Shown here one piece after another: positions 5,176 to 21,199 of a stretch of 22,666 nucleotides of DNA (positions are counted from its first letter, which is position 1; the number at the start of each line of letters is the position of its first letter). The position numbers were made by a program, and so were the translations under genes. The stretch lies in IMG/VR virus record IMGVR_UViG_3300036945_000353, positions 1 to 22,666 of that record; one strand, 5' to 3'. The notes beneath the pieces were generated by a model that made no database searches, was not told where the DNA came from, and saw only the letters and a list, made by a program, of their open reading frames with translations. This DNA is from a virus.

Positions 5176-5978
5176 AATCATTTAAGTCTTTTATTGAAAA
5201 CATATATGAAAGTGCTGATGAAGGACTGAAAGCAAAAGCAGATAAATCTGGTGTATCTCTTGGAATACTCAAAAAGGTATATAGTCGTGGTGTTGCAGCT
5301 TGGAACTCAGGCCATAGACCAGGTACTACTCCACAACAATGGGGTATGGCTCGTGTGAACTCTTATATCACAAAAGGTAAAGGCACATATTATGGTGCTG
5401 ATAAAGACCTTCACGAAGAACAACTAGATGAAAAGACCAGAAGAGATAAAGAATCTGGTTTACCGCAAAAGTATGTGGCTGGTGTATCTGTTGCAACAGC
5501 AAAGGCAAGAGCAGCTCATTGGAAAAAGATGGATCAAAAGAGTGATCGTGATCCTTCGGCATATGAACCAGCGCCTGGCGATGCCACCGCAAAAACAAAA
5601 CCAAGTGAACATACATTAAAGTATCGTAAGATGTATGGTGAAGAACATAATAAATGTGGAACACCAGATTGCTGTGGTCAGTGCAATGAAGAACTTATTA
5701 TTGAGGAAGCCGAATATCAAGGCAAAAAAGTCAAACTGAATGATCCTATTCGAACATCAGAGAATCCAAATAAAAAGTTCAAGGTCTATGTAAGAAATGA
5801 TCAGGGTAATGTTGTCGTAGTTCGCTTTGGTGATCCAAATATGGAAATCAAACGTGATGATCCTGCACGCCGAGCATCATTTAGAGCAAGACATAATTGC
5901 GATAATCCAGGACCGAAGTGGAAAGCAAAATACTGGTCTTGTATGCAATGGCGTGCAGGTGCCAAAGTAGATAACTAA
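5172..5978 (+). CDS. Virion-associated protein with DUF5824-like and phage 'RARHNCD' domains
   Basis: The product has 268 residues in three blocks. The N-terminus M-K-S-F-K-S-F-I-E-N again resembles a capsid-targeting and cleavage signal. Residues ~15-70 match a family I recall as DUF5824 (S-G-V-S-L-G-I-L-K-K-V-Y-S-R-G-V-A-A-W and G-T-T-P-Q-Q-W), seen in many large phages. Residues ~95-160 hold a Lys/Ala/Pro segment around K-Y-V-A-G-V-S, S-A-Y-E-P-A-P-G-D and T-K-P-S-E-H-T, also recurrent in phage proteins. The C-terminus contains S-F-R-A-R-H-N-C-D-N-P-G-P-K-W-K and Y-W-S-C, a common phage virion module with two conserved cysteines; a separate C-x-x-x-x-C-C-x-x-C cluster lies near residue 162. 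LDE and IEE sites separate the blocks. Functions of these domains are not established; packaging is inferred. Confidence 0.65.
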   Translation: MKSFKSFIENIYESADEGLKAKADKSGVSLGILKKVYSRGVAAWNSGHRPGTTPQQWGMARVNSYITKGKGTYYGADKDLHEEQLDEKTRRDKESGLPQKYVAGVSVATAKARAAHWKKMDQKSDRDPSAYEPAPGDATAKTKPSEHTLKYRKMYGEEHNKCGTPDCCGQCNEELIIEEAEYQGKKVKLNDPIRTSENPNKKFKVYVRNDQGNVVVVRFGDPNMEIKRDDPARRASFRARHNCDNPGPKWKAKYWSCMQWRAGAKVDN

Positions 5979-5984
5979 TAAATA
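5977..5984 (+). promoter_or_regulatory. Possible late promoter box (AATAAATA)
   Basis: A one-base variant of TATAAATA overlaps the stop codon of the upstream gene and lies 30 bases before the next start. It could give extra late transcription of 6015-7157. The evidence is sequence similarity only. Confidence 0.3.
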
Positions 5985-6014
5985 CTTAAAACAATAACGT
6001 AATAGGAGTCAAAA

Positions 6015-6680
6015 ATGAAATTAGATCCAGTAGATCAAAAAGCACTTAAAGGTCCACATTCAAGTGCTAAGGACAAAGACATCAACAATGATGGTAAAGT
6101 AAACTCATCTGATGAGTATCTACATAAGCGTCGTCAGGCTGTTTCAAAAGCACTTGGCAAGTTGAAAGAAGCTGCTCTTGAAGAAAAGAAACTTACTGAT
6201 AAGCAAGTAAAGAATGCTCTTGCTTCAGCAAAGGCAAAGCCAAAAGAGATGGTGTCACTTAAAAAGCCTCCTTTCAAAATGGATGAAGAAGCTGAAGAAC
6301 TTGATGAAGTGTCTGCTTCAACATTGGGTTCTTACATTCGCAAATCATCAAAAGATGCAGATGCTTCAATGAAAAAGCGTGATAATGCTCTTGATAATGA
6401 TGATGGTGAAACCGCACGTAAGATGGGCAGAATAGCTCGTAAGCGTGATAAAGGTACAGACATGGCAATGGACAAACTAAAAGGCACTCGTTATGCAAAA
6501 GTTCATGCAACTGAAGAAGCTGACCTTGATGAAGCTAAAAAACCAAAGCCTGGAAATAATGCTATGGTAATGGCAAAGAATATCGGCAAAGTTCTTTCAG
6601 CAGTGAAAAAAGAAGAAGCACCGATGAATGGTGAAAAACCATTGCGTATGAAATTAGCTCAATTCAGAAATCAAGAATAA
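6015..6680 (+). CDS. Lys/Glu-rich virion-associated protein with dockerin-like calcium loop
   Basis: The product has 221 residues, is highly charged and likely largely helical or disordered. Residues ~22-33 form D-I-N-N-D-G-K-V-N-S-S-D, a close fit to a dockerin/EF-hand calcium loop, followed by the basic helix E-Y-L-H-K-R-R. The remainder alternates basic segments with acidic motifs ending in Glu (A-A-L-E-E, E-E-L-D-E-V, A-D-L-D-E-A), which fit the T4 gp21-type rule of a hydrophobic residue two before the cleaved Glu. Cleavage would release several basic peptides, as happens to T4 internal and scaffold proteins. An AGGAG ribosome-binding site lies upstream with good spacing. No homologue of known function is recognised; assignment as a processed internal head protein is inference from motifs and neighbours. 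Confidence 0.6.
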   Translation: MKLDPVDQKALKGPHSSAKDKDINNDGKVNSSDEYLHKRRQAVSKALGKLKEAALEEKKLTDKQVKNALASAKAKPKEMVSLKKPPFKMDEEAEELDEVSASTLGSYIRKSSKDADASMKKRDNALDNDDGETARKMGRIARKRDKGTDMAMDKLKGTRYAKVHATEEADLDEAKKPKPGNNAMVMAKNIGKVLSAVKKEEAPMNGEKPLRMKLAQFRNQE

Positions 6681-14888: not shown

Positions 14889-15092
14889 ATGTTTACATCT
14901 GATCATGACTTTGATATTCTTGAAGAGATCACTATCGGTGATGGTGCTAAACTTCGGTTGATCAAAAACACCCGTAGCAAAAATCTTGCAATCCAATCGT
15001 GGGGTCCTATGCAACAAACATGGGTCACCACGTATCGGTATAATGTTGAAGAAAACTGGAACAAATGGAAATATATTCAAAATAGTTGTTGA
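14889..15092 (+). CDS. Small protein of unknown function; stop codon lies in the next promoter
   Basis: The product has 67 residues (M-F-T-S-D-H-D-F-D-I-L-E-E-I-T), with a Trp-rich second half (S-W-G-P-M-Q-Q-T-W-V-T-T-Y and W-N-K-W-K-Y). The GAGGTCTAATATG leader is the same as that of the gene at 16806. The TGA stop is inside the TTGACA -35 box of the next promoter, and the last codons (Q-N-S-C) are encoded by the conserved promoter extension, so coding and promoter sequence overlap. No function is recognised. Confidence 0.7.
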   Translation: MFTSDHDFDILEEITIGDGAKLRLIKNTRSKNLAIQSWGPMQQTWVTTYRYNVEENWNKWKYIQNSC

Positions 15093-15117
15093 CATATGTT
15101 TCTGGTTGTGTTAAGTT
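15089..15117 (+). promoter_or_regulatory. Early promoter, AAAATAGTTG-TTGACAT family (weak -10)
   Basis: TTGACA (15089-15094), a 17-base spacer and TAAGTT in the -10 position. The upstream extension AAAATAGTTG is identical to four of the other copies. The -10 is the poorest of the set. Confidence 0.6.
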
Positions 15118-16970: not shown

Positions 16971-17058
16971 GGAAGTGGGCGTTAGACGCAAGAGGGCCTT
17001 ATACACCCTTCAGCAGTAGATGACTGTTCTCGACTAGGAGCGTAACCTAGCACTTCTA
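16971..17058 (+). tRNA. tRNA-like element with long variable arm, anticodon uncertain
   Basis: Acceptor GGAAGTG/CACTTCT, D-stem GCG/CGC, a 6-bp variable arm (AGCAGT/ACTGTT) and a T-stem CTAGG/CCTAG. The T-loop is AGCGTAA, not TTCGANN. The anticodon stem closes as GGG/CCC around a nine-base loop CCTTATACA, so the anticodon could be TAT or TTA. CCA is not encoded. It is tRNA-shaped but may not be a working tRNA. Confidence 0.45.
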
Positions 17059-17063
17059 CATAG

Positions 17064-17123
17064 AGAACAAGATTTGTATAAATAGTACTGAATAGGTAAA
17101 CCTAGGAGTACAAATCTTGTTCT
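17064..17123 (+). promoter_or_regulatory. Hairpin with internal late promoter controlling the homing endonuclease
   Basis: A perfect 15-bp inverted repeat (AGAACAAGATTTGTA 17064-17078; reverse complement 17109-17123) encloses a 30-base loop. The right arm contains the TTG start codon (17117) and the loop end holds the AGGAG ribosome-binding site (17104-17108). A TATAAATA late box (17077-17084) spans the end of the left arm. Long transcripts can fold and hide the start; transcripts from the late box would begin after the left arm and leave it open. This mirrors T4 I-TevI control. Confidence 0.8.
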
Positions 17124-17632
17124 ATACAATCTACCAGATCACTAATCTTCTTGATGGTAAGGTCTATATTGGTAAACACCAGACTAAAACCCTTAACGAT
17201 GGTTACATGGGCTCTGGTAAGCATCTAAAACACTCTCAGGCCAAACACGGAATCGAGAACTTCAAGAAAGAAATTCTCTTCCAATTTGATAATGAAGACG
17301 AGATGAACGCCAAAGAAGCTGAACTTGTGACAGAAGAGTTTTGTTTAAAAGAAGACAACTACAATCTTTGCCCTGGTGGGCAAGGTGGTTGGGGTTACAT
17401 CAATCAAAATAATTTAACACCACGAATGTTGGGAAAAAAACAGAGTGATAAACAAAAGGATATTTCGTCCTCTTTAATCTCTGAGAGAAACAAAACCGGC
17501 AAAACTTCTGAGTCAATGAAGAAATATTATGCCAATAATGATCATCCTTGGGTTGGTCGCAAGCACAGTGAAGAAACAAAAGCTAAAATGCGTGAAACTC
17601 GTAGACTTAAGAAACTTGGTTCTCTGGTGTAA
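17117..17632 (+). CDS. GIY-YIG homing endonuclease with NUMOD3 repeats (SegA/SegE type)
   Basis: The product has 171 residues. GIY-YIG core: Y-T-I-Y-Q-I-T-N (residues 3-10), V-Y-I-G-K-H, G-Y-M-G-S-G-K-H, the catalytic Glu in A-K-E-A-E-L-V and the terminal Asn in N-Y-N-L-C-P-G-G-Q-G-G. Two NUMOD3-type DNA-binding motifs follow (M-L-G-K-K-Q-S-D-K-Q-K and V-G-R-K-H-S-E-E-T-K-A-K-M-R-E). The start is a TTG, preceded by AGGAG at 8 bases and locked in a hairpin. The last five codons including the stop are also the first 15 bases of tRNA-Met. The gene lies between tRNA-type elements, consistent with a freestanding homing gene that inserted beside a tRNA. Confidence 0.9.
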   Translation: MFYTIYQITNLLDGKVYIGKHQTKTLNDGYMGSGKHLKHSQAKHGIENFKKEILFQFDNEDEMNAKEAELVTEEFCLKEDNYNLCPGGQGGWGYINQNNLTPRMLGKKQSDKQKDISSSLISERNKTGKTSESMKKYYANNDHPWVGRKHSEETKAKMRETRRLKKLGSLV

Positions 17633-17693
17633 AGGTTAGCACTAAGCGCTCATAACGCTTCAGGTCAGAGTTCGAGTCTCTGGGGAACTACCA
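17618..17693 (+). tRNA. tRNA-Met (anticodon CAT)
   Basis: Acceptor GGTTCTC/GGGAACT, D-stem GTGT/GCAC, anticodon arm AAGCG-CTCATAA-CGCTT, T-arm CAGAG-TTCGAGT-CTCTG, CCA encoded. The 5' acceptor strand overlaps the 3' end of the homing endonuclease by 15 bases. CAT could also be an Ile tRNA if the C is modified to lysidine. Confidence 0.88.
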
Positions 17694-17731
17694 GCTCTTG
17701 ATCGTAGGTTCAAATCCGAGTGGGAGCACCA
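17694..17731 (+). pseudogene. tRNA remnant: acceptor and T-arm only
   Basis: GCTCTTG pairs with TGGGAGC (three G-U pairs), followed by A and CCA; between them lie only three bases and a T-arm-like segment (GTAGG-TTCAAAT-CCGAG, two mismatches). D and anticodon arms are absent. It follows the CCA of tRNA-Met directly and is probably a deletion scar, though the minihelix could still be processed. Confidence 0.55.
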
Positions 17732-18381: not shown

Positions 18382-18392
18382 CAAAATAGTTG

Positions 18393-21184: not shown

Positions 21185-21199
21185 ATACGAAAATAGTTA

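Follow-up and report, generated by a model that had tools for sequence, protein, structure and literature searches.

In bacteriophage T4 and related phages, several homing endonuclease genes are kept from early translation by RNA structure. Control by a hairpin together with a late promoter has been described for I-TevI, with similar control for I-TevII, I-TevIII, T4 segB and mobE of Aeromonas phage Aeh1 (2010 review, PMC2988022). For the three intron-encoded enzymes of T4 (I-TevI, I-TevII and I-TevIII), the ribosome-binding site is hidden in early and middle transcripts but becomes accessible in those that start at a late promoter within the structure (PMC2988022, PMC3014915); the purpose of late restriction, protection of intron splicing, has been worked out for the intron case of I-TevI alone. 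An RNA hairpin that hides the ribosome-binding site of the free-standing Aeh1 mobE was demonstrated experimentally (PMC2988022 and PMC3014915, citing Gibb and Edgell). Late genes of T4 itself, namely e (lysozyme), soc and 49, have early long transcripts that fold over the start, and the late promoter box TATAAATA forms part of the 5′ strand of this fold (PMC3014915). Earlier accounts in the literature searched treat single cases. Here, we describe what is very probably a timing switch of this type, built into a mobile, free-standing homing endonuclease cassette that lies among the clustered tRNA genes of a T4-like phage.

The DNA analyzed (hereafter the window) was a 22.7-kb IMG/VR fragment (22,666 nucleotides) of a T4-like phage, whose primase matched those of Sinorhizobium phages phiM7/M12/M19/N3 (47%) and cyanophage gp61 (45%); all features given below lie on its plus strand. 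The endonuclease gene (17117-17632) encodes a Seg-like GIY-YIG homing endonuclease of 171 amino acids with a C-terminal NUMOD3, as assigned with Pfam (PF01541, PF19835 and NUMOD3 above cut-off), PHROG (PHROG 314, E = 1e-48) and alignment. It is free-standing within a tRNA cluster, with tRNA-Leu upstream and tRNA-Met (CAT; 17618-17693) overlapping its last codons, and its relatives are placed alike. The TTG at 17117-17119 is the sole usual start codon in frame after the upstream stop, and it is very likely the correct start, because aligned relatives (44-65% identical to the window endonuclease) mostly have ATG at the same residue. Three related endonuclease genes (L014:2501, L023:2501 and L147:282) have ATC where relatives have ATG and keep long hairpins; no in-frame upstream ATG, GTG or TTG was found in L014 and L023, which lie on one contig, and AUC starts are possible in all three.

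The original prediction placed a perfect 15-bp inverted repeat across the TTG start, and inverted-repeat search and folding located it exactly there, with left arm AGAACAAGATTTGTA at 17064-17078 and right arm TACAAATCTTGTTCT, which holds the start codon, at 17109-17123. The arms are separated by a gap of 30 nt and are 94% complementary when lengthened to 18 nt. No other perfect repeat of ≥15 bp with a spacing of 3 to 60 nt occurs in the window (mean of 0.017 in 60 first-order Markov sequences), and the RNA fold of 17040-17150 (−25.8 kcal/mol; z = −3.8) was matched in stability by 0 of 200 shuffles. A search of the hairpin region against Rfam returned tRNAs and nothing else. The T4-type late promoter box TATAAATA, also predicted across the end of the left arm, is present at 17077-17084 and overlaps the final 2 nt of that arm. 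The Shine-Dalgarno sequence AGGAG (17104-17108) lies in the loop as proposed, abutting the right arm with TTG 8 nt after it, but is not fully free: A104 and G108 take part in pairs when the long transcript is folded in silico, so that repression in the window would rest mainly on the buried start codon.

T4 late promoters carry the box at about −13 to −6. With this geometry, the putative late transcription start falls in the loop at ~17090 (17088-17092). We infer the following sequence of events. Read-through transcripts from upstream (from early promoters and tRNA transcription) would carry both arms and fold into the hairpin, burying TTG and clamping AGGAG at the top of the stem, and the endonuclease would stay untranslated. 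Late in infection, RNA polymerase with the phage late sigma factor gp55 would initiate at TATAAATA inside the hairpin, and the transcript starting at about 17090, without the left arm, would be translated into late endonuclease protein. The predicted cost of opening −16 to +3 around the window start was 11.8 kcal/mol in the long transcript and 4.4 kcal/mol in the transcript from 17090, in which TTG is predicted to pair still, weakly, with the transcript's own 5′ end.

Upstream transcription was judged from promoter-like patterns. The element TAGTTGTTGACAT occurs in five perfect plus-strand copies in the window (14506, 15083, 18387, 18681 and 19266) and with one mismatch at 21194, and these repeats are likely early promoters of the phage. 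The copy nearest upstream of the endonuclease, an early-type element by pattern only, is at 15083-15095; no terminator-like site was found on the plus strand between it and the endonuclease, so early read-through into the gene is plausible. The TAGTTGTTGACAT copy at 18387 is followed by a TATAAATA box, and early and late boxes may therefore overlap.

By comparison of sequences, the closest precedent is T4 segB (NC_000866), which the original prediction did not name. It had cited I-TevI and mobE as T4 precedents; the hairpin-regulated mobE belongs to Aeh1 (PMC2988022). Like the window gene, segB is a free-standing GIY-YIG gene in a tRNA cluster, located after tRNA-Ile, with a stem (AGAACATAAATA...TATTTATGTTCT) over its AUG in the same register and on the same stem foot (AGAACA...TGTTCT), and with a late promoter box in the left arm. 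The two differ in that the segB box lies wholly within the stem whereas the window box overlaps the left-arm end, and in that segB has AGGAG in the right side of the structure and an AUG start, whereas the window has AGGAG in a 30-nt loop and a TTG start; apart from the foot, the stem sequences differ. The other systems are more distant: the window gene, unlike I-TevI, I-TevII and I-TevIII, has no intron; Aeh1 mobE is of the HNH family and sits in a ribonucleotide reductase gene rather than among tRNAs; and e, soc and 49 are the phage's own late genes, whereas the window gene belongs to a mobile element. The arrangement is thus not new in kind, being known from T4 segB.

Conservation of the pairing was assessed in relatives picked by endonuclease similarity, with near copies removed at 75% identity; related sequences remain in this sample, so the swap and control comparisons are more telling than the raw counts. 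In ten alignable start regions with a start-covering stem, 98.9% of pair cells held standard pairs. Five pairs of this same-stem alignment had changed on both sides, with 15 double-change cells versus 5.8 in shuffles (0 of 500 reached this number), and sliding the partners by 1 to 3 columns lowered pairing to 32-48%. Stems of the wider family share little sequence and could not be aligned for that reason. Their left and right arms were instead compared as duplexes, for which a mean of −13.4 kcal/mol was obtained with each relative's own arms versus −8.1 kcal/mol with swapped arms (best of 10,000 permutations, −9.9 kcal/mol). The late motif (≤1 mismatch) was found in the start regions of 75 of 104 distinct relatives, and 37 of these 75 had a strong stem (score ≥10) placed against box and start, compared with 1 of 72 control genes that have the motif upstream and 21 of 3,750 shuffled versions. 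About half of the relatives, many with TATAAATA, are without such a stem, so the family can do without the lock. Among 32 hairpin carriers, the median predicted cost of opening the start region fell from 18.3 kcal/mol (long transcript) to 4.3 kcal/mol (late transcript); because the carriers were selected for having stems, the drop on truncation alone is the informative part. Compensatory changes, arm swaps and controls thus lend strong comparative support to the proposal that the hairpin would hide the start on long transcripts and that the internal late promoter would bypass it.

Many hairpin-less leaders behind a tRNA share a different element, a short stem (TTGAGTC...GACTCGA) that immediately precedes the late box and leaves the Shine-Dalgarno sequence untouched (L021, L027, L038, L047, L129, L134, L144, L145, L148, L161, L170 and L175).

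Signs of late promoters were sought in the leaders and in the contigs that carry the hairpin. TATAAATA was present in the leaders of 58 of 104 relatives versus 0.9 in shuffles, and the left arm typically extends as far as the 5′ half of the box, which sets the predicted start site in the loop. Homologues of T4 gp55 were found in 7 of 10 carrier contigs, gp55 being absent from the 22.7-kb window fragment itself, and in 4 of 6 such contigs TATAAATA precedes gp23 by 28 to 40 nt. In a 195-kb carrier, 36 of 41 TATAAATA sites lie on the same strand as gp23 and the endonuclease (13 sites in all for a reversed-pattern control).

Two registers of the hairpin were distinguished. In register 1 (the window, L003, L005, L006, L099, L107, L083 and T4 segB), the right arm lies over the start codon; in register 2 (L004, L008, L014, L023, L105, L111, L112, L159 and others), it stops before reaching the start, with the Shine-Dalgarno sequence inside the right arm in 18 of 34 counted and no Shine-Dalgarno-like word found in 15. 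L004, whose endonuclease shares 87% N-terminal identity with that of the window, belongs to register 2 and is nested among register 1. On the endonuclease tree, which has few columns and many open forks, the hairpin was strongly clustered (19 changes versus 36 in shuffles); T4 segB fell outside the group of the window in this poorly resolved N-terminal tree. The original prediction had taken the hairpin for convergent control of a selfish gene. The sequences do not establish convergence. Hairpins are most frequent in a single region of the tree, and their foot coincides with the point where the mobile cassette starts; an inherited, continually re-paired stem fits this as well as independent invention or better.

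Empty sites in two relatives, L084 (flanks ~85% identical) and L085, place the 5′ edge of the inserted cassette at 17060-17063, where it adjoins the 3′ end of a tRNA; in both relatives the same tRNA-like gene is followed directly by tRNA-Met and the endonuclease is absent. The additional DNA of the window begins at ~17060, the foot of the hairpin, and similarity of the copies in L004, L005 and L083 begins at 17056-17058. A second, independent site is occupied in L083 (~92% identical in the region) and uninterrupted in the window at ~18676; the L083 copy (5723-6465) follows a tRNA-like gene at L083 5660-5726 and begins with CATAGAGAAC and its own hairpin. Since the inserted DNA starts at the hairpin foot at two sites, the lock travels with the gene. 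Occupied and empty sites in L083, L084 and L085 point to a mobile endonuclease gene that would spread by homing. Three endonuclease copies lie on the L083 contig, and each of them has a separate hairpin.

Directly upstream of the cassette is a class-II tRNA-like gene (16971-17058; acceptor stem GGAAGTG/CACTTCT, anticodon loop CTTATAC), recognized from the sequence and the aligned L084 and L085 relatives; neither ARAGORN nor Rfam called the window copy, which has an unusual T arm (loop AGCGTAA). Its counterparts are at ~4614-4704 in L084 and ~4790-4882 in L085 (loop CTTATAA/C, anticodon UAU as read), and L004 has a called tRNA-Ile(TAT) of 91 nt. At the other end, the endonuclease stop codon lies inside the intact tRNA-Met, which is directly followed by a 3′ remnant of a second tRNA-Met at 17694-17731, as if the cassette had brought its own tRNA-Met and the resident copy had decayed. 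Same-isotype tRNAs flank the endonuclease in 8 of 45 relatives with two flanking tRNAs (2.5 expected; 11 of 5,000 shuffles as high), a hint of tRNA duplication or exchange upon insertion.

The proximity of tRNAs raises a different explanation, that the inverted repeat acts mainly on the upstream tRNA, either by directing its 3′ processing or stabilizing it or by terminating its transcript ahead of the endonuclease gene, and that hiding of the start is incidental. A tRNA does end ≤110 nt before the hairpin in 64 of 103 relatives, and RNase E processing has been reported for T4 segB transcripts (PMC2988022). Hairpin-less relatives, however, equally sit behind tRNAs, and the stem is positioned against the late promoter and start codon, with register changes that still hide either the Shine-Dalgarno sequence or the start. 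An intrinsic terminator was rejected because no U- or T-run follows 17123, and the stem was not scored as a terminator. We regard a tRNA element as very unlikely to be the main explanation, and the hairpin may have a dual role, serving the tRNA and hiding the start.

The palindrome could also act as DNA, either as an operator through which the endonuclease represses its own gene or as its recognition site. The late promoter and the repeat overlap, and I-TevI represses its own late promoter through an overlapping operator (PMC2988022). Stems among relatives with similar endonucleases, the window and L004 included, are nonetheless almost wholly different while the pairing is kept, as expected of RNA pairing and not of a protein-binding site; the operator was rejected on this ground, and we give a DNA site of either kind hardly any credence. 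It is also conceivable that the hairpin is real and the late box unused, with expression of the gene held down by a weak start codon and the structure of its leader, given that the window start is TTG, that the promoter at the box is a predicted one, and that chance alone would yield two perfect TATAAATA copies in the window. Most relatives, though, use ATG, the excess of boxes in their leaders is placed so that a late transcript would lose the left arm, and carriers have both gp55 and late boxes ahead of gp23, which makes an idle box very improbable. The preferred reading remains a start hidden on long transcripts and exposed on late ones.

What is new, as read from the sequences compared, would be that this control is kept across dozens of distant relatives although the lock sequences have changed almost completely. 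The family-wide picture (dozens of stems, two registers and a cassette edge at the hairpin) was not found in the literature searched, which covered few subscription papers, so this absence is weak. On balance, we favor the broader view that the switch is a mobile, self-contained regulatory cassette on tRNA-cluster endonucleases of many environmental T4-like phages, in which the stem turns over, the target shifts between start codon and Shine-Dalgarno sequence, and the timing logic is what is selected. If true, selfish nuclease genes of phages would commonly move with their own timing lock, silent in early transcripts of the tRNA region and active only late, which would explain how they land in early operons with little harm. 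The natural variants (stems turned over completely, both registers and matched relatives that lack the hairpin) would then form a ready set for testing why late restriction is selected.
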